From: Nocardia farcinica
GTDB taxonomy: Bacteria; Actinomycetota; Actinomycetes; Mycobacteriales; Mycobacteriaceae
Direction of reading: 5' to 3'
Assembly: GCF_001182745.1 (NCBI RefSeq)
Contig: NZ_LN868941.1
Span: forward strand, 32,709 to 96,708
DNA length: 64,000 bases
Below, piece by piece: positions 7,875-28,449 of this stretch; the stretch's first letter is position 1, and every line of letters begins with the position of its first letter. The notes beneath the pieces were generated by a model. That model made no database searches. It saw only the letters and a list, made by a program, of their open reading frames with translations, and was not told the origin of the DNA. The position numbers and the translations under genes were made by a program.

Positions 7875-8741
7875 ATGCCATTGCTGCGCGTCGCTGTCCC
7901 GAACAAAGGTTCTCTGAGCGAATCGGCTCTGACGTTGCTCACCGAGGCCGGGTATCGCCTACCGCGGGTGCGGAACAAGGAGTTGAACTGCTTCGATCCC
8001 GAGAACGAGATCGAGTTCTTCTTCCAGCGGCCCCGCGATATCGCGGTGTACGTGGGCGCGGGAACCCTGGATCTGGGGATCACGGGCAAGGATCTGCTCG
8101 ACGACGCCGCCGCGCCGGCGGAGTCGGTTCTCGACCTCGGGTTCGCCCGGTCGACGTTCTATTTCGCGGCGCGTCCGGACGGGCCGAAGTCGGTGGCGGA
8201 CCTGGCGGGCCGGTCGGTGGCGACGTCGTATCCGGAACTGGTGCGCAAGCACTTGGCCCAGGCGGGGGTGTCGGCCAACGTCGTGGTGTTGCAAGGCGCG
8301 GTGGAGAACGCGGTCGCCCTCGGCTTGGCGGATGCGATCGCCGATGTGGTGGAGACCGGGACGTCGTTGGAGAACGCGGGCCTGGTCACCTTCGGTGAGC
8401 CCCTGATGAGGTCGGAGGCGGTGCTGATCCGCAGTACCACGGCGGAGTGGACCGATGAGCGGGCCGAGGCGGTGACGGTGATGCTGGACCGCCTCAACGG
8501 GGTGTTGACCGCGCGCCGGTACGTGATGGTCGATTACGACTGCCCGCGGGCGGTGCTCGATGCGGCGTGTGCGTTGACGCCGGGGATCGAGTCGCCGACG
8601 GTGTCGCCACTGGCGGACCCGGATTGGGTGGCGGTGCGGTCGTTGGTGGAGCGCAAGAGCATCAACCGCACCATGGACGACCTCAAGAAGCTCGGGGCCT
8701 CCGCGATCCTGGCGACCGAACTGGCTGCCTGCCGCCTATGA
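7875..8741 (+). CDS. hisG: ATP phosphoribosyltransferase (HisG family, long form)
   Basis: HisG condenses ATP with PRPP to phosphoribosyl-ATP, the first step of histidine synthesis. This 288-residue protein has the full actinobacterial architecture: N-terminal PNKGSLSE, FFFQRPRDIAVYVGAG, LDLGITGKDLL, the PRPP-region match GLADAIADVVETG, FGEPLMRSEAVLI and a C-terminal regulatory domain ending with conserved NRTMDDLKKLGA. It is alone: no other his gene is near, so it is a paralogue serving another purpose or a back-up copy. HisG paralogues such as PenA start purine-analogue (pentostatin) pathways; that precedent plus nucleotide-handling neighbours suggests a specialised role. The ATG at 7875 matches the family N-terminus. 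Confidence 0.9.
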   Translation: MPLLRVAVPNKGSLSESALTLLTEAGYRLPRVRNKELNCFDPENEIEFFFQRPRDIAVYVGAGTLDLGITGKDLLDDAAAPAESVLDLGFARSTFYFAARPDGPKSVADLAGRSVATSYPELVRKHLAQAGVSANVVVLQGAVENAVALGLADAIADVVETGTSLENAGLVTFGEPLMRSEAVLIRSTTAEWTDERAEAVTVMLDRLNGVLTARRYVMVDYDCPRAVLDAACALTPGIESPTVSPLADPDWVAVRSLVERKSINRTMDDLKKLGASAILATELAACRL

Positions 8742-8755
8742 CCCACGCACCCGTG

Positions 8756-9019
8756 TCATCGCTGGTGTTGGCCGCCGTCGGCGCGGCGCTGGACGGCGGT
8801 GGCGATGAGTCGTATATCCCGCCCGGCGCCGTGTGCGGCAGCAACGGCTTCGCGTAGCGCGGCGATTTCCTCTGGCCGCAGCGCGGCGAGCGGCACATCC
8901 TCGCCGATCACCTGGAGCGCCTGTTGGGAGGCGGTTTCCAGCTCGTCGGCGCACTTGACCAGCTGGGCAGTGAGCGGAAATCTCGCCTTGTCTGCGGTCA
9001 GCAGAAAGTCGTCAGCCAC
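8756..9019 (-). CDS. Small helical protein of unknown function
   Basis: An 87-residue frame with a GTG start lies 9 bp downstream of the dNTPase-like gene and is the last gene of that minus-strand operon, convergent with hisG. It is mostly Ala/Leu/Glu helix (VKCADELETASQQALQVI; AALRPEEIAALREAVAAAH). No family is recognised. Its size and position suggest an accessory or regulatory subunit, but nothing in it shows this. Confidence 0.6.
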   Translation of the reverse strand: MADDFLLTADKARFPLTAQLVKCADELETASQQALQVIGEDVPLAALRPEEIAALREAVAAAHGAGRDIRLIATAVQRRADGGQHQR

Positions 9020-9028
9020 GGCGCAAAC

Positions 9029-10387
9029 CTAGCGCCCCCGACCGCCCATGGAGTTCACTTCCGCGGTATCGGGGGCCCGGATCGGCCACAGTGCTGGTAC
9101 ACAGCTTGATTCGTCGCGCTTACGCCGGATCTCCGGAATCTGGGCCCCCACGGGCCCGGATTCACGATCGGTGGTCAGCGTGTCGAACACCTCGACCGCG
9201 CACCGGTCGGTGTAGGCCGCGACCTGATCAACGACCACCCGGACCCGGGCGGCGTCGGTGTCGGCGCGCAACCACGCCGCGGCGAAGCGGGGTTCGAGCA
9301 GGTCGGGGGCGGCGGTGAGGAGGGCGTCGAAGACGGTGTCGATGACGTGGCGCTGCCACGCCCGGCGGGCCCGCAAAGCGGGTGCACGGAGCACGAAGTG
9401 CAGGTGCACGGCTTTGAGTACCGCGATTTCGGCGCGGACGTGGGCGGGCACGACCAGATCGGCGGTGAACCGGTGGTGCGGGCCGAGTCCGGTGCCGGCT
9501 TTTGTCGCCTCTGTGATCGCGGTGGTGAACCGGGCGGTGAGCGCGTGCTCCAGCGCGGAGATCGCGGCCAGGTCGCCGGGCCCGGGGCGGGTGAGGGCAG
9601 CGACGGCGGGCAGGCCCAGCAGGTCGTTGGTGTGGGCGTCGATGTCGTCGACGGCCACGGTGGTGAAGTGGCCGTGGGCGAGCTTGGCGAACTCGGCGCG
9701 CTCGGACGCAGACGTGAGCGGGGACAGGGTGATCGCACCGGTGCGCAGCCCGGCGGTCAGGTCGGTGACAGCGTTGGCGATGTCGTCCGCTGTGTCCATG
9801 ATCTGCGCCTCCACGCACAGCCGCCGATCCGGTGCGCCGTGGCGGACCCAGGCCAGGGTGTCGGCGTCGTCGGGGTAAGCGCCGAACTTGCGGGCCGGGC
9901 CCGGGGTCCACGGGTATTTGCAGGTCGCGTCCAGGCTGGCGCGCGTCAGGTTCAACCCGCCACCGGTAGCGGTGCTGGGTTCGAGTCGGGTGAGGATGCG
10001 CAGGGTCTGGGCGTTGGCCTCGAACCCGAGCCCGTGGGCGCGGGCCTTGGTGCGCAACGCCATCTCGCCGTTGTGCCCGAACGGTGGATGTCCGAGATCG
10101 TGTGCCAGGCAACCGGTTTCGACCAGCGTGGGGTCGGCGCCGACGCCGAGGGCGATGCGGCGGCCGAGGGTGGCCACGGTCAGGGAGTGGGTGAGCCGGT
10201 TGTGGGGTACCGGCCCGGCGTCGGGTTCGTCGACCTGGGTGATGTTCGACAGTCGGTGCAGCGCGCCGCTGGCGAGCAGCCGGCCGCGGTCGTGGTCGAA
10301 CACGGTGGCCGGATCGCGGTAGGGGTGGCCGTGTTCGGGGATGCGGCGAGCCCGGTCGTGGTGGCTGTAGCCGGTCGGGGTCGTCAT
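9029..10387 (-). CDS. HD-domain dGTPase-like triphosphohydrolase
   Basis: The 452-residue protein belongs to the dGTPase branch of HD hydrolases, which convert (d)NTPs to nucleosides and triphosphate. The metal ligands are visible: His67 (NRLTHSLTVA), His96-Asp97 (AHDLGHPPFGHNGE) and a later Asp near 195 (IMDTADDIANAV). The N-terminal RDPATVFDHDRGRLLASGALHRLSNITQV stretch matches the family opening, where nucleotide contacts occur. The start follows GAGAGG. It sits in a four-gene operon with a kinase-fold protein and a GT4. In context it may remove an unwanted or modified dNTP, or dephosphorylate a pathway intermediate; this is inference. Confidence 0.85.
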   Translation of the reverse strand: MTTPTGYSHHDRARRIPEHGHPYRDPATVFDHDRGRLLASGALHRLSNITQVDEPDAGPVPHNRLTHSLTVATLGRRIALGVGADPTLVETGCLAHDLGHPPFGHNGEMALRTKARAHGLGFEANAQTLRILTRLEPSTATGGGLNLTRASLDATCKYPWTPGPARKFGAYPDDADTLAWVRHGAPDRRLCVEAQIMDTADDIANAVTDLTAGLRTGAITLSPLTSASERAEFAKLAHGHFTTVAVDDIDAHTNDLLGLPAVAALTRPGPGDLAAISALEHALTARFTTAITEATKAGTGLGPHHRFTADLVVPAHVRAEIAVLKAVHLHFVLRAPALRARRAWQRHVIDTVFDALLTAAPDLLEPRFAAAWLRADTDAARVRVVVDQVAAYTDRCAVEVFDTLTTDRESGPVGAQIPEIRRKRDESSCVPALWPIRAPDTAEVNSMGGRGR

Positions 10388-10406
10388 CGGCGTGGTCCTC
10401 TCGTCG

Positions 10407-11156
10407 CTATGGGGTGATCGGCTCGTCGACGGTGGTCGACGCGGCGAACAGGGCCTCGATCTGGGCGGGGTGCAGGTAGCGGGTGATCAGTGGATCGGTC
10501 CGGAACCGGGCGGCCGGGACGCCGAGGAACCGGTGCTCGAGGTACATCAACCGCCGAAACACCAGCCGGTAGATGTGTGCGGGGACGCCGTGGCAGGAGA
10601 CGGTCAGCAGCTGCCCGGCGTGGTGGTGGCGGCGGAGTTCGAGGGTGCTGATCAGCCGGTTGGTGTCGAGCAGCCGCAACTGCCCGGCGACGTCGACGAC
10701 GAGGTTGTCCATCGGCGGATCGATGAAGTCCGGGATCAGCGACGCTTCGGCATCGAGGGCGGGCACCGGCGCGGTGTCGGCCAGCAGCCCGCGCACCACG
10801 CCGGTGAACACGGCGAGCTGGTCGAGGGTTTGCCGCGGGAGCCGGTGGCGCGCGGCGATGCGCAGCGACCAGGCGGGCGCCACCGGCACGAAGTCCTTGA
10901 CCACCACCGCCTCGCACAACCGCGCGGACGGGGCGGGCAGCAGCAGGCGCTCGTTCGGGATCAGGCCGGGCAGGACCGGATCGAAGATCGCCCGCAGGTA
11001 TCGGTACTCGCGGCGCACCTTGGCCACGGTGAGTTCGGGGGCGTCGGGCCGGAACACCTGCATCACCACCGGGCTGCCGGGCCGGTGGTAGACCGTGGAA
11101 TGGTTGCCCTGCCCGATCGCCCGATGCCGCCGGGCCGTCCCGATCACCGCGGTCAT
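10407..11156 (-). CDS. Degenerate kinase-fold (phosphotransferase-like) protein
   Basis: The 249-residue protein shows a glycine-loop-like GQGNHSTVYHR (residues about 13-24) followed by a strand VVMQVFR, where a canonical kinase would carry the ATP-binding Lys; here it is Gln. A later DNLVVDVAGQLRLLDTNR block resembles the catalytic-loop/DFG region of aminoglycoside- or lipopolysaccharide-type kinases. ATP binding and activity are therefore uncertain. Its ATG overlaps the preceding glycosyltransferase stop (ATGA), and the dNTPase-like gene follows after 19 bp, so the three are translated together. It could phosphorylate a small molecule or act as a pseudokinase. Confidence 0.6.
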   Translation of the reverse strand: MTAVIGTARRHRAIGQGNHSTVYHRPGSPVVMQVFRPDAPELTVAKVRREYRYLRAIFDPVLPGLIPNERLLLPAPSARLCEAVVVKDFVPVAPAWSLRIAARHRLPRQTLDQLAVFTGVVRGLLADTAPVPALDAEASLIPDFIDPPMDNLVVDVAGQLRLLDTNRLISTLELRRHHHAGQLLTVSCHGVPAHIYRLVFRRLMYLEHRFLGVPAARFRTDPLITRYLHPAQIEALFAASTTVDEPITP

Positions 11157-12487
11157 GCCCGCACCGCCTCGTGGGAGCCGATGACCTGGGCGTAGCCGGT
11201 GGCCATCTGCTCCACCCCGAACCGGGTGGCACTGGCCCGCCCGTTGCGCGCCAGGCGCCGGTGCAGTGCGGTGTCGGTGAGCACGCGTGCCAGGGCGTCG
11301 GCGAGCGCGCCGGGATCGCTCGGTGGCACCAGCAGCCCGGAGCGGCCGTGGTCGATGTAGTCGCGTGGTCCGCCGTGGTCGGTGGTGATCACCGGGGTGC
11401 CGGCGAGCATCGCTTCGATGTTGGCGTAGCCGAACGCTTCCGGGCAGCGCGACGGCAGTACCGCGACCGTCGCGGCCCGGTAGCAGGCCGCGACCTCGAC
11501 CGGGGAGAGCTCGTCGAGCAGGAACACCCGCCCGGCCAGGTCGCTGGCGTTGATCAGATCGGTCAGCTCCCGGGTGTAGTCCAGGGCGCGGGTGTCGTGC
11601 ATGTCGTGGCCGTTGAACACCGCGAACGCCTCCCCGGCGACACCGCGGGCGGACAGGATGCGCAGGGCGGCGATCAGATCGGCGTGGCCCTTCCACGCCA
11701 CCCGCCGCGCCGAGAGCAACACCATCGGCCCGTCCGGAAGCTGGTTGCGGCGCGCGAGGGCGGCGAAGGCGTTCTCGGCGGCGGCCGCGCGCATCCGGGA
11801 CTCGAACTCGGCGATGTCCATGCCGTTGGGCACCGTGTGGACCCGCTCGCCGGTGATTCCGGCCTTGGCCAGGTGTTCGGCCACCGCGGTCGACACCGCG
11901 ACGATCCGCACCGAGTGCTCGGTGACCTCGAGACGGCGGCGCAGGTAGTCGAACCGCCGCTCGGCGCCGGCGAGATCGTGCACCACCCCGGTCACGTTCA
12001 GGCGGCCGACGCCGGCCGCGGCCAGCCGACCGGACTGTTCGGCTTTGAGCACCGACACGATCGGATTGATGTTCTGCGCCAGCAGATCCGGTGTATCGGC
12101 GGTGGCGATGACGTAGGCGTACTGCCGCGCCAAACCCGCATACACCGGATTTGCCGGGTCGTCGATGGCGTCCTCGTAGAAGTGGCGCACCCGCGCGGGG
12201 TCCTTGCCGCCGTCCGCACCGCCGAGGTACTGGCCGAACCCGCTCCGAATCCCTTGGGCCAGCACCACGGTGCCGTCCGGGGTGCGCAACTGGTAGGCGC
12301 CGGGGCGGGTGGCGCCGGTCTGGGTGATCGCCCAGCGCGTCCCAGGATGCCGGGCGGCCAGCGCGGCGAGCAGATGGTGGGTGTGGGCGACCAGACCGGT
12401 GTGGCGACAGGGTTTTCGCTGTCCCGTGGCCACGACGGTGCCGTGCATGTCGTAGGTGAGGATGTGCATCGCCGACGGGAATTCCAT
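11153..12487 (-). CDS. GT4-type glycosyltransferase
   Basis: The 444-residue protein has the GT-B fold signatures of family GT4: an N-terminal HTGLVAHTHHLLAALAAR donor/acceptor segment, the interdomain VHTVPNGMDIAEF, SARRVAWKGHADLIAAL, and the C-terminal EX7E block PEAFGYANIEAMLAGTPVI followed by HGRSGLLVPPSDPGAL. It transfers a sugar from an activated nucleotide donor, probably in the cytosol. The ATG at 12487 is preceded by GGAGGA at ideal spacing. First gene of the minus-strand operon, divergent from an HTH/TPR regulator that probably controls it. Confidence 0.85.
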   Translation of the reverse strand: MEFPSAMHILTYDMHGTVVATGQRKPCRHTGLVAHTHHLLAALAARHPGTRWAITQTGATRPGAYQLRTPDGTVVLAQGIRSGFGQYLGGADGGKDPARVRHFYEDAIDDPANPVYAGLARQYAYVIATADTPDLLAQNINPIVSVLKAEQSGRLAAAGVGRLNVTGVVHDLAGAERRFDYLRRRLEVTEHSVRIVAVSTAVAEHLAKAGITGERVHTVPNGMDIAEFESRMRAAAAENAFAALARRNQLPDGPMVLLSARRVAWKGHADLIAALRILSARGVAGEAFAVFNGHDMHDTRALDYTRELTDLINASDLAGRVFLLDELSPVEVAACYRAATVAVLPSRCPEAFGYANIEAMLAGTPVITTDHGGPRDYIDHGRSGLLVPPSDPGALADALARVLTDTALHRRLARNGRASATRFGVEQMATGYAQVIGSHEAVRA

Positions 12488-12590
12488 ACCGTCCTCCACG
12501 TTCCGAGACGACCGGATCAACAACCCCAGCAACCGGTTTCGGTGAACCAGGTCACATCAGGACACCGCGCGTATGGCCGGTCGCGGCAGT

Positions 12591-12625
12591 GGTGCGCTTG
12601 GTGCGTTTCGGTGCGTTTCGGTGCC
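12591..12625. repeat. Tandem 10-bp repeats GGTGCGTTTC in divergent promoter
   Basis: Units begin at 12591 (GGTGCGCTT), 12600 and 12610 (both exactly GGTGCGTTTC), and 12620 (GGTGC, then diverges). They are phased at about one helical turn between two divergent genes. They probably bind the neighbouring regulator cooperatively. Confidence 0.6.
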
Positions 12626-14541: not shown

Positions 14542-15609
14542 TCAGTCGTCACAAATGCTGCCTGGTGTTCGGCCGCGTGTCGCCCGGAGACGGGAGTCGT
14601 CGTGGCGGAAGTCGGAGGGGCTGCCGGAGTTGCTGTCGGGTTCGGGGGTGTCGTAGGCGGCGGCTGCGTCGGCGTGGTGTTGTCGTAGCGCAGCGCGGAG
14701 TTCGGGGGGTTGTTCGATGATCACGTCGCTGCCGAAGCTGGCGACGAGTGGGATGAGCCATTTCCAGCGGTCGACGTAGAGGACGATGCGGGTGGTGCCG
14801 TCGGGGTCGTGGTGGACTTCGGAGTCGGGTTTGAGTCCCAGGCGCAGCATTTCCTCGCGGCTGCCGGGGCGCACGCGGATGACGACTCGGGTGGGTCCGC
14901 GGCCGAAGTCTTCGAGTGCTTGGCGCCACCAGTCCTTGAGGTTGAAGGTGGTTTCGGGGTAGACGAACTTCAGGTCGGTGGCGGTGAGCCGGTCGATGTT
15001 GTTGAGCTGGTAGCGCTGGGGTTCTGAGTGTGGTGGTGCGGCGACGAGCCACCATTCCCCACCTTTCCAGACCATGCCGTAGGGCTTGACGATGAGGTGC
15101 TGGTGGTCGTCGCTGTGGTGGACGCGGACGGTGATCTGGATGGCGGTCCCGGTGAGCAGGGCCTCGCGGAGTGTGGCGAGGTGACCGGAGCTTTCGTCGC
15201 GCCAGTACCAGTCGGTGGTGTCGAAGTAGATGCGGTGGGCGAGACGGTGCAGGAACCGGGCGCGTGAGGCGCTGACGTTGTTCCTGCCGGAGTTTGCTTC
15301 GCCGCCTGTGGGTTCGGGGTGGGCGTGTCCTTGTTCGAGGAGGCCGAGGACGTAGAGGCGCAGGGCGTCGTCGCCGTCGACAAGCAGGGAGTCCAGCGGT
15401 TGATCGGTGGTGAGCCGGAATCCGCCGCCGCGGCCGGCCACGGACTCGATCGGGATGCCGAACGCGATCAGTTCCTCGATGTCGCGGTAGATGGTGCGCG
15501 CATTGACGCCGAACCGGGCGGCCAGCGAGGTCGCGGAAACCCATGTGCGGGACCGCAACTGGTGAACGATGGCGGTGTGGCGGGCGTGGCGTGGGTTGGT
15601 CGGCGGCAT
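14542..15609 (-). CDS. WYL-domain transcriptional regulator (DeoR-type HTH)
   Basis: The 355-residue protein has an N-terminal winged HTH (WVSATSLAARFGVNARTIYRDIEEL), then a WYL-domain region (LIVKPYGMVWKGGEWWLVAA and YQLNNIDRL) and a C-terminal extension of the kind seen in PafBC-like regulators. Such proteins sense ligands, often nucleic acid or nucleotides, and control DNA-damage or defence genes. It ends 104 bp before the Cys-motif gene and starts 26 bp after the nine-gene operon on the same strand, so it may be that operon's last gene and its regulator. The tail is Ser/Asp-rich. Confidence 0.85.
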   Translation of the reverse strand: MPPTNPRHARHTAIVHQLRSRTWVSATSLAARFGVNARTIYRDIEELIAFGIPIESVAGRGGGFRLTTDQPLDSLLVDGDDALRLYVLGLLEQGHAHPEPTGGEANSGRNNVSASRARFLHRLAHRIYFDTTDWYWRDESSGHLATLREALLTGTAIQITVRVHHSDDHQHLIVKPYGMVWKGGEWWLVAAPPHSEPQRYQLNNIDRLTATDLKFVYPETTFNLKDWWRQALEDFGRGPTRVVIRVRPGSREEMLRLGLKPDSEVHHDPDGTTRIVLYVDRWKWLIPLVASFGSDVIIEQPPELRAALRQHHADAAAAYDTPEPDSNSGSPSDFRHDDSRLRATRGRTPGSICDD

Positions 15610-15635: not shown

Positions 15636-16733
15636 TCAGCTCGCTGCGGCGGCCTGCCGGTAGACCTCGATCAGACGGCGGCCGACCGATTCCGCGGTGT
15701 AGTTGCTCAGGTGCGCGGTGACCGCGTCGTGGTCAGCGGGTTCTGCGTCGCAGACGGCGATGATGTTCTTGGCCAGGATCTCCTCGTCGTGCGGGTCGGT
15801 GTAGCGGGCGGCCAGGCCGCCGGTGACTTCGCGGAGGACGGGCAGGTCCGAGCACAGCAGCGGTGTTCCGGCGACGAGGGCTTCCTGGGCGGGGATGCCG
15901 AAGCCCTCGAACAGGGTGGGGAACACGAACGCGGTCGCGGCCCGGTACAGGGCGGCGAGCTCGGCGTCGCCGATGTGGCCGAGGATCGTGATCTCGGGGT
16001 CGCGCATCGGCAGGCCCCGTTCCCAGCCGCGGCGCCCGGCCAGCAGCAGCCGGGCCGGTACCTGGTCGGGGGCGGCTGCTCGGGCGAGCCGGAAGGCGCG
16101 GACGAGGCGGGGGATGTTCTTCGACGGCATGTACACGCCGACGCCGAACAGGAAGGGCTCGGACGGGGCCAGGGCCGGGTCGGCGGTGCGCAGTTGGTGC
16201 GCGAAGTCGGTGGCCACGTAGTTCGGTACGACCTCAAGGGGTTTGCCGAGATCGCCGAGGGCGCCGACGATATCGGCGCGGGCCGCGTGGGAGACGGTGA
16301 TGACCGCGCGCAGGTCCTCACCGGCCAGCAGGGTGTGCAGGCGCGGGTTCTGTACGTCGCGGACTGCGCGGACCATCTGGTCGGGGAACAGGTAGCGGCC
16401 GGCGTCGTGCAGGGTGAACACCGCGGGCCGCGGCAGGGCGGCGGGCAGCGCGAACGGGTAGTGCACGAGGTCGGCGTCGAAGTGCTCGATCTGGCGGTGC
16501 AGGTGGTGTTCGCGCCGGTCCGGCACGGTGAGAACGCGGATACCCGCGCGCTGGGCACGCGGGTATCGGTCGGCATGCTCGGCGGTGAGCACGACGGCGA
16601 TCTCGACCTTCTCACCGGTCGCGGCGAGGGCGTCGGTGAGCAGGTGGATGTAGCGTTCGACACCGGTCTGGATGGTGGCGCGCCAGTAGCGGGCGTCGAT
16701 CGCCACGCGCAGTGCTCGGTCAGACACGGGCAC
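15636..16733 (-). CDS. GT4-type glycosyltransferase (second)
   Basis: A 365-residue GT-B enzyme: N-terminal RVAIDARYWRATIQTGVERY, central LEVVPNYVATDF and FLFGVGVYMPSKNIPRLVRAF, C-terminal EX7E block FEGFGIPAQEALVAGTPLL and SDLPVLREV. It resembles mannosyl/rhamnosyl-transferase-like GT4 members. GTG starts at 16733 and 16727 are both possible. It overlaps the DNA glycosylase gene by 14 bp at its start and is distal in the nine-gene operon. The acceptor is unknown; with the GT4 at 11153 the island carries two sugar-transfer steps. Confidence 0.85.
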   Translation of the reverse strand: MPVSDRALRVAIDARYWRATIQTGVERYIHLLTDALAATGEKVEIAVVLTAEHADRYPRAQRAGIRVLTVPDRREHHLHRQIEHFDADLVHYPFALPAALPRPAVFTLHDAGRYLFPDQMVRAVRDVQNPRLHTLLAGEDLRAVITVSHAARADIVGALGDLGKPLEVVPNYVATDFAHQLRTADPALAPSEPFLFGVGVYMPSKNIPRLVRAFRLARAAAPDQVPARLLLAGRRGWERGLPMRDPEITILGHIGDAELAALYRAATAFVFPTLFEGFGIPAQEALVAGTPLLCSDLPVLREVTGGLAARYTDPHDEEILAKNIIAVCDAEPADHDAVTAHLSNYTAESVGRRLIEVYRQAAAAS

Positions 16734-18608: not shown

Positions 18609-21001
18609 GGTTGTGGTGCTCCTGCTCGTGTCGTCGGGTCGATGTCGCGCACCACGCGCACGCCGACCAGATGCCCGCACTTCTCGGCGGCTTCCAGCGG
18701 GCGCACGGTCGTGCGCAGGAAGTACGTGTTGGAGGCCACGTCCCCACCCCGGTAGACCGGGTGGCCGCGGTAGGAATCCGAACACCACTGCCAGACATGG
18801 CCGGTCAGGTCGGCGAGACCGAACGGTGATGGCCCGTCGTCTCCGTCGTCGATGGTAGACACGGCCGCACCGCGCTCCAAGCACCGTGGCGGACCGGGCA
18901 ACGCTGCGCCCCAAGGGAACCAGCGCCCGTCGCTGCCGCGCGCGGCGTACTCCCATTCGGCCTCGGTCGGCAGCCGGCCACCAGCCCAGCCCGCGTACCG
19001 GTCGGCCCAGTCGAACGGCACGATCACCGGCTCGGCGGGCCGCTCGGCCCGCACCGGGGTCTCGGCGAGGGTGAACCCGCCACCGGCCGCGTGGGCCGCG
19101 GCGGCCGCGTCGTCGGGGGCCAGTGCGGTCAGGAACCGGGCGAACTGGGCGCGGGTGGCCGGGGTGACGCTGAACCACACGCCGGCGATGTCCACCGGCG
19201 CCTGCCCGCGTTCCCCGATGGGCTCGATGCCGAACACCGCCCGCACCACGTCGGCTTCGTCGTCGGTGAGGCCGGGCGCGAACCGGGCGGCGGGCAACCG
19301 GATCTCGCGCGCACCGTCGACCGCGCGCCGCCGTGTCGGCAGACCGGTCGCCGGTTCGGCGGCCGGGCGGGTGGTGAGGTAGTTGGTGAGCACGGTGAGC
19401 ATGTCGGCGGGGGCGATGCCGTCGCGGGTCGCGGTCGGGCCGGTGAACCAGGCCCCGCCGTCGCCGATCCCGTCGGGCCCGTGCTCGGCGGCCCACCCGA
19501 TATCGGCGAACCAGGCGGCGTAGGCGTCGTTGCGGCCGTTGGGCCGGAACACCGCGGTCAACGTGGGGATGTCGCGGCGGTGGGCGTCGCGGCGGATGAG
19601 ATCGAGCATCCGCTGGTGCGTGCCCGCCCACAGCAGGCGGCAGCTGGCCAGCAGCGAGTCCAGCCGCGCCGTGCCGTCGCGGTAGTCGACCTCGGCGACG
19701 CCGACGATTTCCGGCGCCAGGGCCGTGCCGTGGTAGCGGACCTCGAACGCCAGCACCGCCCAGTCCGGGTCGGCGGCCAGCTTGGCCAGTTCGTCGGCGC
19801 TGCGCCGGGGGGAGGTCATGTTGAACTGGTTGCTGCGCTGGTGCAGCTGCGCGCACCGGTCGAGCACCGCCGGGTCGGTGGGATCGGTCAGGCACACCAC
19901 TTCCGGGATCAGCTCGCCGGTGGCCTTGGCCCGATAGAACGCGGTGCGGGCGGTGTCGGAGGCGGTGACCGGCGCCGCACCGGGAGGCGGAAGCTGGGCC
20001 AGCAGGTCCGCGACGAGCAGCGGCGGCCCGGCCACCGACGGCACCCGCAGGTCCGGCCACACCGTGCGGGCCCGTTCCTGCTGCGCCGGGTCGTCGTCGA
20101 CGAACACCACACTGTCGGGGGCGATGCCGTCGAAGAAGCCGAGGATGTCGGTGATCCGGTCGGCCTTGTCGATATCCGGCTGCGCCCACAGCCCGGCCAG
20201 CCCGATATCGGCGGCGTGGGCCTGCACCGCGGCCGCGGCGGCGTCGCGGTCGTTGCGCGACAGGCCCGCCACCAGCGTGCCGTGGGAGCGGCGATCGGCC
20301 AGCACCGACCGCCACACCCGGTGCGGTGCCGCAGCCAGCATGTCGGTGCCGTCGAGACCGGTCGTGCCGTCCTCGGCGACGGTGCCGGGCCACAGGACTC
20401 CGTCGAGGTCGCTGATCACCGCTTTCGGCCCCGGCTGGGTCTGTGCGGCGATCAGCTGCCAGTGCAACCAGGCCGTATCCACCAGCCCCGCCCACAGCGC
20501 GGCCGCGCGGATGTGTCGCCCCATCGCCCGCAGCGCCGCCGACGTCGCCGGGTAGTCCGCGCCGGCGGACAGCACATCCAGGGACGCGACCCGGTGCAGC
20601 GCGGCCACCGTCACCCCGTGGCGGGCAGCCCACTGCGACAGGGCGCGGTTGGCGTCCTCGATCACCGCATCGATCCGGCCGTCACCGGTGAAGGGCACGG
20701 TCTGCACGATCACGGCGGGTTCGGCGGCCGCGACCTGTTCGACGGCGTCGACCAGGCCGGTGGCCGCGCCCGCGTCGCCGGTGAAGATCGCGGCGGCTTC
20801 CGGCAGGGCAGCGGTGACCAGCACGGTCGCGGTGATCTCGTCGCGGTCGGGGGCCAGGCGGGCGGTGAGCCGTCCCAGCAGCTCGCCCAGCGCGGGCAAC
20901 GCCACCGGCTCGGGCAGCAGACGCAGGCACAGCCCGGCCCCGGGGTCGCCGAACCCGGACTCGAGGCTGGTGAGCCAGTGCAGGTAGTTGGTCTTGGTCA
21001 T
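18605..21001 (-). CDS. FkbH-like HAD/GNAT protein fused to FGE-sulfatase domain
   Basis: The 798-residue protein starts with a Leu/Ala-rich region, then a HAD-IIIC domain with DxD in VISDLDGVLWPG (Asp198, Asp200) and VFVDDDP (about 285), then a GNAT-like module (about 350-510). FkbH proteins of this kind activate 1,3-bisphosphoglycerate onto carrier proteins, but no carrier protein is encoded nearby. Residues about 570-785 form an FGE/EgtB-type domain (FSVTPATRAQFARFL, RLPTEAEWEYAARG, GHVWQWCSDSY, ending GVRVVRD), a fold used by formylglycine-generating enzyme and by sulfoxide synthases. The combination is unusual. It is translationally coupled on both sides. Confidence 0.8.
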   Translation of the reverse strand: MTKTNYLHWLTSLESGFGDPGAGLCLRLLPEPVALPALGELLGRLTARLAPDRDEITATVLVTAALPEAAAIFTGDAGAATGLVDAVEQVAAAEPAVIVQTVPFTGDGRIDAVIEDANRALSQWAARHGVTVAALHRVASLDVLSAGADYPATSAALRAMGRHIRAAALWAGLVDTAWLHWQLIAAQTQPGPKAVISDLDGVLWPGTVAEDGTTGLDGTDMLAAAPHRVWRSVLADRRSHGTLVAGLSRNDRDAAAAAVQAHAADIGLAGLWAQPDIDKADRITDILGFFDGIAPDSVVFVDDDPAQQERARTVWPDLRVPSVAGPPLLVADLLAQLPPPGAAPVTASDTARTAFYRAKATGELIPEVVCLTDPTDPAVLDRCAQLHQRSNQFNMTSPRRSADELAKLAADPDWAVLAFEVRYHGTALAPEIVGVAEVDYRDGTARLDSLLASCRLLWAGTHQRMLDLIRRDAHRRDIPTLTAVFRPNGRNDAYAAWFADIGWAAEHGPDGIGDGGAWFTGPTATRDGIAPADMLTVLTNYLTTRPAAEPATGLPTRRRAVDGAREIRLPAARFAPGLTDDEADVVRAVFGIEPIGERGQAPVDIAGVWFSVTPATRAQFARFLTALAPDDAAAAAHAAGGGFTLAETPVRAERPAEPVIVPFDWADRYAGWAGGRLPTEAEWEYAARGSDGRWFPWGAALPGPPRCLERGAAVSTIDDGDDGPSPFGLADLTGHVWQWCSDSYRGHPVYRGGDVASNTYFLRTTVRPLEAAEKCGHLVGVRVVRDIDPTTRAGAPQP

Positions 21002-21765
21002 GGGAGATCCCCCGGAATATCGGCGTCCAATCGGATGATCTGGCCGCTCACGTACTGCCACGACGGGTCGCACACCACCGCGACCGTCGTCTGCGCGACC
21101 TCGTCGATGCTCAGCGCGCGGCCCCACGGCAACCGCGCGTAGTAGTCGGCCGGGTCGGTGATGCCTTTGCGGGCCAGGATCTGCTCGGCCATGGGCGAGC
21201 AGATCAGCGACGGCGCAACCACATTCACGCGCACCCCGTGGCCCGCCTCTTCCTTGGCCAGCGTCCACGCCAACGCCTCCAACGCCGCCTTCGACGCGCT
21301 GTAGGCGCCGTTGCCGGGCGTGCAGGTCGCCGCCGCCTGCGAGCTGAGCACCACAACCCGCGCCCGCCCCGACCGCGCGGCCGGATGCACCGCCCGCCAC
21401 ATCTGGTGCAGCGCACCGGCATTGACCGTGAACAGGTCGGACAATTCGGCGGGGGATGTCGCGTCCAGGCGGGCCTTGCTCGAGGCCGCGCCGGCGGCGA
21501 ACACCATCACGCCCAGGTGCTGCCCGACGGCGGCCGCGAGCCCGCCGAGATCATCGCCGGACCGGGCATCGAACCGGGTCCAGGTCAGGTCCGGCGCGGC
21601 TGGGCCGGTGCCGGTGGTCGAGGTCGCCACGACGCGATGCCCCCGCTCGAGCAGAAGCTGCACCACCGCGGCGCCCACCGCGCCGCTGCCACCGATCACC
21701 AGCGCAGCACCCGCACCGTCGCGCGGTGCGTGCCCGCCCGTCTCAGACTCCAGCGCGGCGGCCAC
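20998..21765 (-). CDS. Short-chain dehydrogenase/reductase
   Basis: A classical 255-residue SDR: nucleotide-binding GGSGAVG near residue 25, catalytic Ser141/142 (VVVLSSQ) and YSASK (Tyr155, Lys159), and a C-terminal GRALSIDEVAQTTVAVVCDPSWQYVSGQ segment. The usual NNAG is altered to FAAGAAS. It oxidises or reduces an alcohol/ketone with NAD(P)(H). The GTG at 21765 is chosen because GGAAGGAGG precedes it by 5 nt; it lies within the end of the upstream small gene, so translation is coupled. Pentostatin-type pathways pair a HisG paralogue with an SDR, but the resemblance is only at family level. Confidence 0.85.
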   Translation of the reverse strand: MAAALESETGGHAPRDGAGAALVIGGSGAVGAAVVQLLLERGHRVVATSTTGTGPAAPDLTWTRFDARSGDDLGGLAAAVGQHLGVMVFAAGAASSKARLDATSPAELSDLFTVNAGALHQMWRAVHPAARSGRARVVVLSSQAAATCTPGNGAYSASKAALEALAWTLAKEEAGHGVRVNVVAPSLICSPMAEQILARKGITDPADYYARLPWGRALSIDEVAQTTVAVVCDPSWQYVSGQIIRLDADIPGDLP

Positions 21766-22159
21766 GGTCGCCTCCTTCCACCGGGTCGGAGTCGGGGTGG
21801 TCGGTGACGAACATGTCCTGGAAGCGCATCTGCCGGTCCGGGATGCCGAAGAACGCGCCGATGGCACGGGCCCGCTCGGCGGCCGCCTCGTCGCCGCGCC
21901 GGACCTGGACCACGACACCGGGAAAGATCACGATCATCAGCTCGTCGTCGAGCAGGTGCGCGTACCACCCATCTGGTGCGAGCACCGCGGCCAGCCGAAC
22001 CGCGACCTCGGCGGCGCGTCCCGGCGCGACCTGCACCTCGAGCACCTCGACCGGGATGCGCCGGTCCAGCAGGTGCGGATACGAGCCGGTGAGCACCACC
22101 GGCATCGGCAGCGGCAGGCTCCGATCCGGCAAGCTCTCCCGCAACACGATCCCGCGCAT
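21743..22159 (-). CDS. Small conserved protein, paralogue of the 24728 gene
   Basis: The 138-residue product begins MRGIVLRESLP and contains GWYAHLLDDELMIVIFPGVVVQV and AIGAFFGIPDRQMRF. The divergent protein at 24728 begins MIKGVLIAESL with GWYVDMHNDTTVYVVFPGKVF and ATGVAGVPDTQLW, so the two share start, core and end motifs and are paralogues. The predicted fold is a small alpha/beta domain without Cys, membrane segment or catalytic signature. It starts 2 bp after the B12-type radical SAM gene. Roles such as chaperone, sensor or substrate carrier are open. Confidence 0.75.
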   Translation of the reverse strand: MRGIVLRESLPDRSLPLPMPVVLTGSYPHLLDRRIPVEVLEVQVAPGRAAEVAVRLAAVLAPDGWYAHLLDDELMIVIFPGVVVQVRRGDEAAAERARAIGAFFGIPDRQMRFQDMFVTDHPDSDPVEGGDRGRRAGV

Positions 22160-22161
22160 GC

Positions 22162-23517
22162 TCAGCTCACCCCCGCGCCGGGTGCCTTGACCAGGCGAGT
22201 GTGCGCGCGAGCGCGGGCCACCATCTCGCTGCTGGTCCACGGCGTCTGCGAGTCGTAGTAGTCGAAGTCCGCCCACTGCGCCAGCGTCGTCGGCGCCTGG
22301 AACCCTCGTTCGAGCGCCAGGTCGAACAGCGGAACGCCCGGGAAGGGCCCGAACAGGTGCACGCGGGTCTCCGGACGCGGGTCCAACGTGCTGATCTCCT
22401 CGATCAGGCTGTAGGTCGCCTCGATCTCGGCCTCGGTCTCGTCCGGGAATCCGACGATGAACGTGTACGCGCCGAGAATCCCGTGGTTGGCGATATCGCG
22501 GGCGACATCGAGAACCTGGGCTCGGGTGACCTCCTTGCGCACCACCTCGCGCAGTACCCGGTCGTCGCCGGACTCGATACCCATCAGCAGTCGGCGGCAG
22601 CCGGAATCGGCGATCGAACCGAGCAGGTCGAGCCGCTGCTTGCGGGCGCGCAGCACGTCGTTGGGGTTGATCGAGGCCGCCCACGCCAGGTCGATGCCGC
22701 GCTCGGCCTTGAGCTGGCAGAACTCCACCGCCCGGCGCACGTTGACGAACCAGTCCGCGTCGTAGAACTTCACCCCGTTGATGCCGTAGCGATCGGCGAG
22801 GTCGGCCAGGTCGTCCAGCAGCGAATCCGCCTGCATCGCACTGTATTTGCGCTGATAGGTCAACTCGTAGCAGAACGCGCACTTGTACACGCAGCCCTGG
22901 GAGGACACGTAGTTCAAGGTGCGCGGCGCCACGGTCGGGTCGTCGCGGATGTAGTCGCCGACGGCCAGCAGGTCCCACGGGTAAGCACCCAGGTTCCCCG
23001 CCCGCGGCGGGTTGATCGGTCCCTCGATCCGGTTGCGGCCGTGCACGGCGAGCAGGCCGGGCACCGAGTCCCAGCCGGCCCGGTTGCGCAGGGCCTCGAC
23101 GAACGCGGGCATCGATGCCTGTCCCGGGCCTGCCAGCGTGACGTCGACCAGCTCGTGCTCGGCGGTCTGCTCGGCGAGCACATTGACGTGCGGGCCGCCG
23201 AACACCAGCGGCGGGCAGCCCGGACGGTTCTGCGCCACCTCGGCCATCTCCAGGGCGTGCCGGATCTGCGCGCCGCCGGTCATGATGCTGATCCCGATAC
23301 ACATCGCCCGGTCGGCGTGCTCGTCGAGGAAGCCCGGCCACTCGGTCTGCGGACGCTGGTTGCCGTCGAAGATCACCACCTCGACGCCGTTGTCCATCAA
23401 CGGTTTGGCGATGGTGAGCAGCGAGAACGGCATCCAGTGGTACAGGTAGTCCTTCTCGTGCTCCACCTGCGGATACACCAGGATCACCAACGGGCGATCC
23501 ACCAGCAACGCGGTCAC
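22162..23517 (-). CDS. B12-binding-domain radical SAM protein
   Basis: The 451-residue protein has an N-terminal Rossmann-like region of the cobalamin-binding type (MPFSLLTIAKPLMDNGVEVVIFDGNQRP; GGPHVNVLAEQTAEH) and a radical SAM core with Cys209/213/216 in CVYKCAFC. It ends with the typical FIVGFPDETEAEIEATYSLI segment. The usual DxHxxG cobalamin-ligand motif is not evident, so the corrinoid may bind base-off or not at all. Class members methylate unactivated carbons or rearrange rings. It overlaps the second radical SAM gene by 4 bp, implying paired action in one pathway. Confidence 0.85.
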   Translation of the reverse strand: MTALLVDRPLVILVYPQVEHEKDYLYHWMPFSLLTIAKPLMDNGVEVVIFDGNQRPQTEWPGFLDEHADRAMCIGISIMTGGAQIRHALEMAEVAQNRPGCPPLVFGGPHVNVLAEQTAEHELVDVTLAGPGQASMPAFVEALRNRAGWDSVPGLLAVHGRNRIEGPINPPRAGNLGAYPWDLLAVGDYIRDDPTVAPRTLNYVSSQGCVYKCAFCYELTYQRKYSAMQADSLLDDLADLADRYGINGVKFYDADWFVNVRRAVEFCQLKAERGIDLAWAASINPNDVLRARKQRLDLLGSIADSGCRRLLMGIESGDDRVLREVVRKEVTRAQVLDVARDIANHGILGAYTFIVGFPDETEAEIEATYSLIEEISTLDPRPETRVHLFGPFPGVPLFDLALERGFQAPTTLAQWADFDYYDSQTPWTSSEMVARARAHTRLVKAPGAGVS

Positions 23518-24599
23518 GACGACACCCCCACCACGGGCAGCATCCGAACCCCGCTGGACTGGCCGCCACCGGGGTGGAAGCTCGCCCCGGCGTAGGTCGC
23601 CAACGCATCGGCCAGCGCACGCTCCAGCCGCGCCGGATCGTGCAGGATCGGCGCGAGCGGCACCGAGATCTCATCCCGCAGCAGGCAGAACTGCAACCGG
23701 CGATCGGCGGTCAGCCGCAGCGCCATCAACGCATCATGGCACGGGAAGAACCGGCACCCCGAGCACACATCGCCGTACCAGGCCCCGGCGCGGCTGTCCT
23801 TCAGCACGACCTCGAATCCCGAGGCCAGGGTCATCACCGTCATCGGGTGGCCGAGCCCGCCCTGAGACCGGCTCTCCACCACCACCGCGCGGGCCCGCAG
23901 CCCTCCCGCCACCTCCTCCAGCGGCACATACAGCGACTCGACCGTGGCACCGCCGCGGGTGATGGCCAGCCGCCGGGCGAAGGACTCGGCGCCGGCGTCC
24001 AGGTCGCGGATGACATCGAGCAGCTTCAGCGTCGCCACGCCCTCGCTCTCGCACCACGCGGCCAGATCGGGCACCTCACCCGCGTTCACCCCGGCCATCA
24101 CCACCGTGTTGATCTTCACCGGCACACCGGTGGCCACGCAGGCGCGCATCGCCGACTGCACCTCGGCCAGGTCGTCGATACCGCAGATCTGGCGGTGCAG
24201 GCCCGCGTCCAAGGTGTCGATGCTCATGTTGAACTGGGTGACCCCGGCCGCGGCGAGCGCACCGGCCCGCTCACCGATTCGCGGGTGCCGCGAGATCACC
24301 TCGATCTCCGACATCCCCGCATCCCGCAGCCCCGCCACCGCTTCCTCGAGCGGGGCCCACAGTGCCGGATCACCACCGGTCAGCTTGATCGAGGTCAGGC
24401 CACGCTCGACCAAGGGCGCGACGACGGCCAGCAAGTCGGCCACGGTCAGTTCCTCCCCCGCGGTGGTGGCCACCGCCTCCCCCGAGGGGCGGCAGAAGAA
24501 GCACGCCCGCCCGCACCGCGAATTCACCGTCACCCGGAACTGCGGCAGCCGCTCGGGGAAACCTTGACGTTCCGACATTGCTTTCATACCTGTCATCAT
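23514..24599 (-). CDS. MoaA-like radical SAM protein with auxiliary Cys cluster
   Basis: The 361-residue protein has the radical SAM motif CGRACFFC (Cys29/33/36), SIKLTGGDPALW, FNMSIDTLDAG and VKINTVVMAGVN, closely patterned on MoaA, which rearranges GTP in molybdopterin synthesis. The C-terminus carries further Cys (CSGCRFFPCH, then QFCLL), likely an auxiliary 4Fe-4S site that in MoaA binds substrate. Four ATG codons (24599, 24596, 24587, 24578) are near the start; the last is plausible. First gene of the nine-gene operon. A nucleotide or purine substrate is an attractive guess given HisG nearby, but unproven. Confidence 0.85.
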   Translation of the reverse strand: MMTGMKAMSERQGFPERLPQFRVTVNSRCGRACFFCRPSGEAVATTAGEELTVADLLAVVAPLVERGLTSIKLTGGDPALWAPLEEAVAGLRDAGMSEIEVISRHPRIGERAGALAAAGVTQFNMSIDTLDAGLHRQICGIDDLAEVQSAMRACVATGVPVKINTVVMAGVNAGEVPDLAAWCESEGVATLKLLDVIRDLDAGAESFARRLAITRGGATVESLYVPLEEVAGGLRARAVVVESRSQGGLGHPMTVMTLASGFEVVLKDSRAGAWYGDVCSGCRFFPCHDALMALRLTADRRLQFCLLRDEISVPLAPILHDPARLERALADALATYAGASFHPGGGQSSGVRMLPVVGVSS

Positions 24600-24640
24600 G
24601 AGCCCATCTCAAGCGAAATTGCCGACAGTACAACAGAATT

Positions 24641-24684
24641 CGATGTCAGTGTTTCTGTGCGCGGCGCGCGAAACCCTGACATCG
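24641..24684. promoter_or_regulatory. 15-bp inverted repeat in divergent radical SAM promoter
   Basis: CGATGTCAGTGTTTC (24641-24655) is repeated in reverse complement at 24670-24684 with one mismatch, 14 bp apart. It sits between the radical SAM operon start and the small gene at 24728, whose likely -10 (TAGGCT, 24715-24720) lies 7 bp before its ATG. Probable operator for both directions. Confidence 0.65.
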
Positions 24685-24727
24685 AGAGTGCTTCCGAACC
24701 ACACCGAACCGGCTTAGGCTCGGCGGC

Positions 24728-25120
24728 ATGATCAAAGGTGTGCTCATCGCCGAAAGCCTCGTCGCGGGCGCGAAGATCGAAGCAATCCCGCTCACCCTCA
24801 CCGGCGTCTACCGGGTCGCGGTCACCGATGCGGCGGACTACCAGCCGCCGGTGTGGACGATCATGTATTTCGACGCCGACGACGCGAACGCTGACACGCT
24901 CGCCGAGCGATTCGCCGACCAACTCGACGCCCCGGGCTGGTACGTCGACATGCACAACGACACCACCGTCTACGTCGTCTTCCCCGGCAAGGTGTTCCGG
25001 TACGCGATCGGCGACCCCGCCGGCCGCGCCGAAGCAGTCGCCTACGCCACCGGAGTGGCCGGAGTCCCCGACACCCAGCTGTGGGGCGAAGGCAACACCC
25101 CCGACCCCGCACTCACCTGA
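24728..25120 (+). CDS. Small conserved protein, paralogue of the 21743 gene
   Basis: The 130-residue protein shares opening, core and closing motifs with the product encoded inside the radical SAM operon: MIKGVLIAESL, GWYVDMHNDTTVYVVFPGKVFRY, VAGVPDTQLW. It adds VWTIMYFDADDANADTLAERF, an acidic helix. Expression is probably from a leaderless transcript: TAGGCT ends 7 bp before the ATG, with TTCCGA 17 bp further up. It is divergent from the operon across a 15-bp inverted repeat, so the two paralogues may be regulated oppositely or together. Function unknown. Confidence 0.75.
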   Translation: MIKGVLIAESLVAGAKIEAIPLTLTGVYRVAVTDAADYQPPVWTIMYFDADDANADTLAERFADQLDAPGWYVDMHNDTTVYVVFPGKVFRYAIGDPAGRAEAVAYATGVAGVPDTQLWGEGNTPDPALT

Positions 25121-26907: not shown

Positions 26908-26911
26908 CGTC

Positions 26912-27988
26912 TTACCCCTGTCTGAACTTCGGCAGCCCGTCGTGCTGGCCAAACTGAGATGTGGAACCCGGTGTGGTTCGGTGCGTGGCGAAAAGGGCCG
27001 TATGGCCGAGTGACTCGGACCCGGCAGCGGCGGCGTGCGCAGCGGGATCGGTGGCCGCCTGGCTCTGGCCGGGACTGGCCGGCGCTCCCGCTCGCAAGGT
27101 CGCGAGAACCCATTCCAGGAAGCCCAGATAGTCGACGCCCGAGGAGAGCCGCGCGATGCGGCCGGGCCCCAAGTGCATCCGCGCATCCGGCTCGATCCGG
27201 AACTCGCGATGGTCGAAGGACACGAAAGCGCCTTGCAACGCGGCGAAGGTCAGCGGATCATGCATCATGCTCGCGGGGTGGAACCGCGCGAACCACTGGT
27301 CGAGGTGGCGGGCGATCACCTGGGCCCACGGAATCGACGATGTCGCGAGCAGGCGATAGATCGGGCTGTCCGGGTCCACTGCGATCACCGGAGTGAAGGT
27401 GTGATCGGACAGCACCAAGGTCAGATTCTCTGCTCGGTCTACGACCGTGTGGACCGCCTTCGGATCGAGCCGAAAGTTGTGCTCGGCGCGGTCCGGCTGG
27501 CGGTATTCGAGAGCGCCGCCCATCTGCCAGATCCGCAGGCGCCGGGCCAGCCCGAGCGGGTTCCGCCGACCGGAATCGATCTCCAGAAGGCGTGCGAGAT
27601 CGGTGAGCGGCCCGATTCCCAACCAGCGCAATGGCGCCGACGAAGCCGGGTCGGTGAGTGTGGCCACCGTGGCGTACAGGTCCAGCGGCCAGGGGTGCGC
27701 CCCAGCGGGGACAAGCCCATCGGCGGCCCAATACTTACTCTCGCCCGCCGTGGCCCCGGCTGCTACCACGACGTCCTCGCGGCCGAGCAAGTCGAGCAGG
27801 TGGCGGGCGAGTATCGACCGCCGGCCGTCGGGGAACTCATCAGCGGTGACAACCAGTGCCAGACGTGGTTCGGTCATTGCGGCCAAGGCCAGTGCGATCG
27901 CGTCGTCCGGATCGCCGCCGATGTCGGTGGAAACGATGAGGGGACAGTCCCTCAGCGCCACCGGGTCGTTGGAAGCAGCGGCAGCCAT
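26912..27988 (-). CDS. Inosine-uridine-type nucleoside hydrolase
   Basis: The 358-residue enzyme carries the family calcium-site signature as STDIGGDPDDAIALALA near residue 20 (canonical DTDxGxDDAxA, with the first Asp replaced by Ser) and the C-terminal MHDPLTFAAL helix bearing a further Asp. These enzymes hydrolyse the N-glycosidic bond of ribonucleosides to base and ribose in the cytoplasm. The changed first residue could alter specificity. The ATG at 27988 overlaps the upstream stop region (TTGATCATGG); a TTG at 27994 is the alternative. It is the only clear enzyme in a seven-gene coupled operon. Confidence 0.8.
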   Translation of the reverse strand: MAAAASNDPVALRDCPLIVSTDIGGDPDDAIALALAAMTEPRLALVVTADEFPDGRRSILARHLLDLLGREDVVVAAGATAGESKYWAADGLVPAGAHPWPLDLYATVATLTDPASSAPLRWLGIGPLTDLARLLEIDSGRRNPLGLARRLRIWQMGGALEYRQPDRAEHNFRLDPKAVHTVVDRAENLTLVLSDHTFTPVIAVDPDSPIYRLLATSSIPWAQVIARHLDQWFARFHPASMMHDPLTFAALQGAFVSFDHREFRIEPDARMHLGPGRIARLSSGVDYLGFLEWVLATLRAGAPASPGQSQAATDPAAHAAAAGSESLGHTALFATHRTTPGSTSQFGQHDGLPKFRQG

Positions 27989-27990
27989 GA

Positions 27991-28449
27991 TCAACCCGCC
28001 TGCGACAGGTTCTTCGCGGCGTCCAGGACGATGCTGACCACGGTGTCGAAGTCGGGACGTTCTTCGCCGACGGGTTCCTCCACCCAGTGCCGCCGCTCGT
28101 CGTCCGGGCCGGGGAGCGTGACCAGCGAACCCTGAACAGTCCGGATCGCTTGGAACTTGAACAGCTGGGACAGGATGCGGACCGGGCGTGGATCTCCCAT
28201 CCGCGCGGGCTGGGTGACGAAGGTCAGGAACCCGGTTGCACGATTCTCGATCGTCGGGGTTGCCAGGCCCCGACGAAGCAGCTCGGCCCGAACTCGCTCA
28301 CCGAGCGGGCGGGGCGTCTGGATTGTGTCCACGGGCCCGGCGCGCAAGATGATCTGCTGGTGCTCGTCCACCTCGGCGCCGACGAAACGGTTTTCTGTGA
28401 TGTACCTCGCGCAACGCGCCGCCGCGGTCTCGGTCAGGGTAGTAGCCAT
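27991..28449 (-). CDS. Unknown 152-residue protein in nucleoside hydrolase operon
   Basis: The frame starts at ATG 28449, overlapping the upstream gene by 16 bp. The protein has a helical start (ARCARYITENRFVGAEV), a basic middle (RPLGERVRAELLRRGL), a beta segment GFLTFVTQPARMGDPRPVRI and an acidic end (DFDTVVSIVLDAAKNL). No signal peptide, Cys motif or known domain is recognised. Conserved operon position suggests a partner of the neighbouring small proteins. Confidence 0.6.
   Translation of the reverse strand: MATTLTETAAARCARYITENRFVGAEVDEHQQIILRAGPVDTIQTPRPLGERVRAELLRRGLATPTIENRATGFLTFVTQPARMGDPRPVRILSQLFKFQAIRTVQGSLVTLPGPDDERRHWVEEPVGEERPDFDTVVSIVLDAAKNLSQAG

Follow-up and report, generated by a model that had tools for sequence, protein, structure and literature searches.

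A conserved radical SAM cassette with alternative acyl-activating enzymes in Nocardia farcinica: a likely biosynthetic cluster beside a second hisG copy

Closest described systems and the conserved cassette

Microcin C-like clusters are defined by a ThiF-type adenylyltransferase, MccB, together with a short precursor peptide. Immunity to peptide-nucleotide antibiotics can be enzymatic: the portion of PMC7157772 that we drew on describes MccF as cleaving their carboxamide bond and HIT hydrolases as cleaving their phosphoramide bond. For pentostatin and coformycin, the portion of PMC12648386 that we drew on describes a HisG-like protein (PenA), a short-chain dehydrogenase/reductase (SDR; PenB) and PenC, and its account of PenA to PenC includes no radical SAM pair, S66 enzyme or acyl-activating enzyme. 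Here we describe a gene cassette in a 64,000-nucleotide stretch of Nocardia farcinica DNA (“the window”, C4:32709-96708 of the source genome). A sequence-only reading of this stretch had proposed a metabolic island led by a HisG paralogue. We find instead that the conserved unit is window 14542-25120, likely a biosynthetic cluster, and not the HisG-led set.

Gene starts were called with a home-made codon-score caller and families were assigned by Pfam and NCBIfam scans of 40 window proteins, including the 20 proteins of 7881-28449. The cassette consists of a nine-gene run on the minus strand and one gene on the plus strand. The first gene of the operon encodes a MoaA-like radical SAM enzyme (23514..24599) with a CxxxCxxC motif at residue 29 and C-terminal cysteines at residues 279, 282, 287 and 305. 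It is followed by a B12-binding radical SAM enzyme (22162..23517; Pfam/NCBIfam), a 138-residue protein without a Pfam or PDB sequence match (sm138; 21743..22159), an SDR (20998..21765; Pfam), a fusion of FkbH-like and FGE/EgtB-like parts (FkbH-FGE; 18605..21001), an S66 peptidase of the MccF/LdcA type that is a candidate self-immunity amidase (17670..18608), an OGG/AlkA-like HhH-GPD glycosylase (16720..17673; Pfam), a glycosyltransferase designated GT4b (15636..16733; Pfam/NCBIfam) and a WYL/WCX helix-turn-helix regulator (14542..15609; Pfam). The eight junctions from WYL to MoaA range from -23 to +26 bp, and four are 4-bp overlaps. On the plus strand, upstream of the operon, lies a divergent relative of sm138 (sm130; 24728..25120; 28% identical), which is found in this position in the window and in three other records (L012, L013 and L015). 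In the near-identical plasmid record NZ_CP031419 the MoaA-like and GT4b genes start at 24587 and 16727.

The scans bore out most of the gene assignments made from sequence alone (hisG, dGTPase, two GT4, S66, glycosylase, SDR, two radical SAM enzymes and a nucleoside hydrolase). Both domains of the FkbH/FGE fusion were also matched, with the FkbH part scoring 88.0 bits, under the TIGR01686 cut-off of 146.65; FkbH-like work is possible at this score. The earlier list lacked sm138, sm130 and the WYL regulator, all of which belong to the conserved block.

With the GTP 3',8-cyclase MoaA, the first enzyme shares a radical SAM domain and a Cys-rich C-terminal region. MoaA has three C-terminal cysteines. 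The family described here differs in having four, invariant in 13/13 aligned proteins, and in scoring far below the MoaA cut-off; conservation of its CxxxCxxC motif can be read in only part of the alignment, as 7/13 rows are too short at the N-terminus to judge. No other molybdopterin gene was recognised in the cassette block. In the B12 enzyme the radical SAM cysteines are invariant in 5/5 proteins, and AprD4 (apramycin) and TokK are among the solved enzymes closest to it. The presence of a B12 radical SAM enzyme and an HD-domain dGTPase in the window recalls the oxetanocin enzymes OxsB and OxsA. The similarity to OxsB is weak (E 3.3e-6), however, and the dGTPase is not conserved with the cassette: when cassette flanks were searched for this HD family, it was found only beside the window, L010 and L012/L053 among the 22 records introduced below.

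For sm138, a small alpha/beta fold is predicted; a fold search with it returned no significant match, which is not proof of a new fold. Among the clusters of a large protein set, sm138 has 115 matches at E<=1e-3, one of them with Pfam domains (a string of repeat families). Distant sm138/sm130-like sequences also occur away from the cassette in Nocardia miyunensis (L054 11093-11485 and, with a weak E-value, G299:C50:60703).

The likeness to microcin C-like clusters lies in the S66 hydrolase, an acyl-activating enzyme and, in some relatives, HIT proteins and exporters. The cassette differs in that two radical SAM enzymes are central and activation would fall to a LysRS-like, FkbH or AMP-ligase enzyme; no ThiF-type MccB was recognised among the 20 proteins of 7881-28449, in which short precursor peptides were not searched for. 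The pentostatin/coformycin analogy put forward earlier had in its favour the occurrence of HisG and an SDR within 15 kb. It does not hold, because no SAICAR-synthase (PenC-like) family was found among the 40 scanned window proteins and the SDR is retained beside the radical SAM pair in places that have no HisG close by. Nor is the cassette the three-gene 4'-thiothymidine cluster, as the latter is presented in the portion of PMC12691670 that we drew on. Searches of the open-licence PMC literature, with subscription papers and MIBiG outside their scope, turned up no account that we recognised as covering this gene set.

Distribution and the acyl-activating enzymes

When contigs were scanned with five aligned B12 radical SAM proteins, 15 loci were found, each in a different species, one of them on a Calothrix plasmid. 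Plasmid searches added N. cyriacigeorgica (L010), N. asteroides and two Streptomyces plasmids, and genome searches contributed two more, one in the genus of the window and the other in the Streptomyces search. Together with the window there are 22 records, three of which (the window, L010 and L012) are close relatives. In this total, L006 and L023 count as a single record and NZ_CP031419 does not count in addition to the window; two further Streptomyces plasmids with a 66% B12-enzyme match (H5, H6) were left out. Members were scored from gene tables and by BLAST against reference proteins taken from the window and the loci themselves, so that entries of 100% are self matches. The records L015 and L021 stop at contig ends, and L014, L018 and L025 are short contigs or lie near ends.

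The 22 records comprise actinobacteria, one cyanobacterium and one alphaproteobacterial metagenome-assembled genome (MAG). The B12 enzyme (truncated in L010) and sm138 are present in all 22, the MoaA-like enzyme and the SDR in 21 each, S66 in 20, and WYL and HhH-GPD in 19 each. Thus, both radical SAM enzymes, the SDR, S66 and HhH-GPD mostly co-occur in homologous regions, as the sequence-only reading had expected of its larger set. L010 has no MoaA-like gene, and the contig of L015 ends inside FkbH, leaving S66, WYL and HhH unseen. No SDR, S66 or WYL was found in L021 up to its contig end. In the Rhodobacteraceae MAG the block is split between two contigs (L025, L055) whose continuity is inferred; the second of these supplies S66, two sm138 genes, an SDR and a distant WYL, and no HhH turned up in the 5.1 kb taken. 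Outside the 22 records, L070 carries FkbH-FGE, S66, HhH, GT4b and WYL on a contig that stops before the radical SAM genes, and a further FkbH piece lies on a different contig of its genome. The cassette of L010 (NZ_CP026745.1, 3858-8446) is broken: its MoaA-like gene is gone, and its B12 gene is cut short close to a Tn3 transposase gene.

The B12 enzyme and sm138 also keep company at the genome level. sm138 occurs in 15/15 genomes found through the B12 enzyme, and in the window's genus the two (E<=1e-80 and E<=1e-6) are found in the same 6/150 genomes, the other 144 having neither; in some genus searches, including that for the B12 enzyme, only part of the first-look candidates was scored. The B12 enzyme is rare elsewhere, with 2/392 genomes in the Streptomyces search (one the centre genome) and 1/65 in Actinomadura (the centre itself), and FkbH-FGE was found in 2/298 genomes of the window's order, one being the source genome. 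The B12 enzyme has at least 208 matching clusters in the large protein set at E<=1e-120, from 7999 scored candidates, and the 120 matches listed include relatives named Brevundimonas, Bradyrhizobium and Melioribacteraceae. We judged, with no formal order test, that the gene order repeated across species is beyond chance. The cassette is very likely a real, conserved and mobile unit.

One position of the cassette varies. Fifteen of the 22 records carry a LysRS-like class II synthetase (type A), in which the motif residues R103, G310, G312 and R315 are invariant in 11/11 aligned proteins and E114 is kept in 10. FkbH-FGE (type B) occupies the position in six records (the window, L010, L012, L013, L014 and L015), and an AMP-ligase with a PCP-condensation protein (type C) in one, Actinomadura rubrisoli L021. 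Near L009 and at the margin of L024 there are FGE-like matches that stand alone, at 38-40% to a portion of the window fusion; the FkbH-FGE count excludes them. Within the stretches read, the LysRS-like synthetase and FkbH-FGE occur together in none of the 22 records. These acyl-activating enzymes are mutually exclusive and interchangeable beside a shared radical SAM pair and sm138. In the tree of the B12 enzyme, type B (5 tips) forms one clade with a support of 0.999 that spans Nocardia and Micromonospora. The motif DLDGV[LI]W is found in the three type B FkbH proteins aligned. A TIGR01686 match likens the window fusion to FkbH glyceryl-transfer enzymes, from which it differs in its score under the curated cut-off, in the FGE-like fusion and in the missing carrier family taken up below.

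The L021 stretch (1-12608, cut by the contig end) holds the radical SAM pair, sm138, a ComA-like protein, the AMP-ligase, the PCP-condensation protein, an MFS protein, HhH-GPD and a luciferase-like monooxygenase.

Possible product, immunity and alternatives

The cassette most likely makes a small molecule that is toxic to its own producer. In the mechanism that we propose, the two radical SAM enzymes would act with the SDR and sm138 to turn a small substrate, probably derived from a nucleotide, into a shared core. The acyl-activating enzyme would then cap this core through an amide-type bond, with a glyceryl unit from FkbH in the window and with an aminoacyl-adenylate from the LysRS-like enzyme or by AMP-ligase and PCP-condensation protein elsewhere; GT4b may glycosylate the type B product. 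S66 could cut the amide-type bond for self-immunity, as MccF does for microcin C, the HhH-GPD glycosylase could remove product or damage from DNA, and WYL would regulate the cassette. An acylated, perhaps nucleotide-derived product with built-in self-immunity is plausible. As a whole, a mobile cluster that acylates a radical-made, perhaps nucleotide-derived core, with the producer protected by amidase and glycosylase, is the reading that we tentatively favour, somewhat short of an even chance. That the family forms a new class of acyl-nucleotide Trojan-horse toxins, with plug-in amino acid, glycerate or nonribosomal peptide synthetase-type/ComA-derived caps and with MccF and DNA-glycosylase immunity, is rather unlikely. 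The earlier claim of an undescribed system is upheld insofar as the cassette looks biosynthetic; its nucleotide-related product is the favoured reading only.

The parallel with microcin C rests on the S66 family profile and on HIT proteins near some relatives. This profile is nearest MccF (E 3.8e-63, with the muramoyltetrapeptide carboxypeptidase 6uuk at 1.1e-49), and the Ser-Glu-His positions are invariant in 12/12 proteins. Among the Streptomyces relatives, HIT proteins lie beside L007 and L008 and a HIT relative lies upstream in L022. ABC transporters occur in L007 and L008 and, more weakly, in L022 and L069, MFS proteins occur in L008 and L022, and L021 has both MFS and PCP-condensation proteins. 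Transporters and PCP-condensation proteins are usual parts of secondary-metabolite clusters. In the HhH-GPD family, the position of the OGG-type catalytic Lys is Tyr in 10/11 proteins and the Asp is kept in 10/11, L021 being the exception in both.

Another N. farcinica plasmid (L011, NZ_CP086603.1) encodes at 5959-6951 an S66 protein 96% identical to that of the window, beside a P450, a ferredoxin, an amidohydrolase and GalE; the radical SAM pair was not seen in the 25 kb read, and this setting might resemble that of a transferable resistance gene. In L007 (NZ_CP108096.1, 4079-13203), a second run of nucleotide flavour adjoins the cassette and encodes a phosphodiesterase, TauD, deoxycytidine deaminase, dCTP deaminase, PIG-L, WbqC and GT4 as well as a synthetase with an editing domain, a MurG-like protein and HIT.

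Several results weigh against the favoured reading. The nucleotide-derived core is argued from kinship with MoaA, kinship with MccF and the company of HhH-GPD and dGTPase. The MoaA-like protein scores 121.2 bits against an NCBIfam MoaA equivalog cut-off of 284.05, and its family profile aligns to solved MoaA over the N-terminal part only. When the window S66 is taken alone, 6uuk (91.9 bits), an MccF-like protein (89.9) and MccF (87.2) do not discriminate between MccF and LdcA, and its only NCBIfam match is to muramoyltetrapeptide carboxypeptidase, far below the cut-off. FkbH usually needs a carrier protein, and the scan of 40 window proteins revealed no carrier-protein family; nor did the surroundings of the window cassette show an exporter family. 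Type B is not one clade in the MoaA tree, the HhH proteins of types A and B share only 18-24% identity, and neither WYL nor HhH-GPD was found in the 23 kb read of Calothrix.

A rival reading is a small-molecule natural product with a non-nucleotide core, derived for example from an amino acid or a sugar, in which S66 is an ordinary L,D-type amidase and HhH-GPD repairs damage that the product causes to DNA. This is a real possibility that we hold below an even chance: AprD4 and TokK are among the solved relatives of the B12 enzyme, the window S66 ties with muramoyltetrapeptide carboxypeptidase, and GT4 and FkbH suit sugar and glyceryl chemistry, whereas the MoaA-like partner, the MccF-leaning S66 family profile and the HIT proteins near some relatives speak against it.

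It is improbable that the cassette serves DNA or RNA hypermodification or anti-phage defence, with the radical SAM and acyl-activating enzymes decorating a base and HhH-GPD and WYL providing quality control and regulation. The frequency of WYL and HhH-GPD (19/22 each), the plasmid location and PADLOC matches for the dGTPase (289 bits), WYL (99.9 bits) and, weakly, viperin for the MoaA-like protein would agree with such a role. However, these viperin matches reach 34.4 and 30.0 bits against 121 bits for MoaA, the NCBIfam prokaryotic viperin model gives 27.6 bits against a cut-off of 180, and relatives carry MFS and PCP-condensation proteins. In addition, neither HhH nor WYL is present in the Calothrix stretch that was read, and scanning viral contigs with the B12 alignment turned up no relatives.

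A HisG-led pathway, with HisG supplying a phosphoribosyl-ATP analogue to the radical SAM enzymes, is highly improbable, since HisG, although a real second copy with an intact family match that adjoins the cassette in three related records, is off the cassette contig in 14/15 genomes, on the opposite strand and of lower GC, with no SAICAR-synthase family in the scanned window proteins.

The hisG copy, other neighbours and the replicon

The window hisG (7881..8741, plus strand) lies on the opposite strand to the cassette and has HisG and HisG_C matches above cut-off. On sequence grounds it appears to be an ordinary, canonical second copy. The region holds no other his genes, as had been noted; the genome as a whole has a second hisG at C1:873863, to which the window copy is 54% identical, and PRA-CH at C1:2262977. 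The window HisG aligns nearly full length to its best PDB matches 5u99, 5lht and 1nh7 (M. tuberculosis HisG). Its relatives in the large protein set include proteins named Nocardia brevicatena, N. carnea, Mycobacterium and Micromonospora (95, 86, 75 and 69% identical), a hisG on a Tsukamurella plasmid is 56% identical, and a viral-contig scan with HisG found no relative.

HisG was found on the cassette contig in 1/15 genomes identified through the B12 enzyme, that of N. neocaledoniensis, whose cassette-contig proteins are 92-100% identical to those of the window (HisG 98-99%; GT4a, the 249-residue protein and dGTPase about 96%). The remaining 14 genomes have HisG matches on other contigs only, 13 with a single match and one with two of equal score. 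Several cassette contigs are short, and so the absence of HisG argues against linkage while remaining blind past contig ends. The GC content of hisG is lower (0.675 against 0.711). HisG as pathway leader was rejected on account of its distribution, opposite strand and lower GC; the idea that it leads the island is not supported, and it is most likely a bystander neighbour.

Three other genes between hisG and the cassette share this limited distribution. These are, on the minus strand, the dGTPase gene (9029..10387; chromosomal relative 48% identical), a gene for a 249-residue protein (10407..11156) that has no Pfam match and, judged by eye from a motif only, may be kinase-like, and GT4a (11153..12532; Pfam), which is outside the conserved cassette. 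The dGTPase, GT4a and 249-residue genes were sought in cassette flanks, the last also in the genus, and the 249-residue and dGTPase genes in plasmids. Together with hisG, they were found beside the cassette only in three closely related records. HisG (E<=1e-115) and the 249-residue gene (E<=1e-20) are found in the same 2/148 genus genomes, both with the cassette, and the latter in two plasmid records, both with the cassette. The four genes may add resistance or a precursor and would not be required.

The nucleoside hydrolase gene (26912..27994, minus strand; Pfam/NCBIfam) was rejected as a member of the system. In three N. farcinica plasmids (H43-H45, each with a further matching place) the best-matching place corresponds to window 25761/25770-30000, at about 93% identity, and all three are absent from the eight plasmid records with a B12-enzyme match of at least 60%. 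HisG, dGTPase, GT4a and the nucleoside hydrolase do not consistently co-occur with the rest, as the earlier reading would have required, and the genes once listed together are not a single unit.

Window 7000-30000 matches the N. farcinica plasmid NZ_CP031419.1 at 100% over its first 18.4 kb in a single piece, and a second place in the record is also matched. This plasmid is circular, 96,709 bp long and mobilizable, with a MOBP relaxase. Just before hisG, window 1271-7759 (plus strand) encodes a very large protein with methyltransferase and helicase matches, annotated as helicase-related in NZ_CP031419. A small cysteine-containing protein at 14099-14437 has no Pfam match and is matched in three related records only. 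Further along, 36382-38106 and 47191-49380 encode a TraG/VirD4-like coupling protein, an SLT and NlpC/P60 protein and a cutinase-like protein, and 55164-56537 encodes a cytochrome P450 outside the cassette.

A hisG may adjoin such a cluster without being one of its genes, and sm138 is a possible marker for genome mining. If the favoured reading is true, the cassette would represent an uncharacterised family of natural products, encoded by plasmids as well as chromosomes, in actinobacteria and no fewer than two further phyla. Its naturally swapped acyl-activating enzymes would then help to find related antibiotics, and the family would teach how MoaA-like and B12 radical SAM enzymes act jointly.

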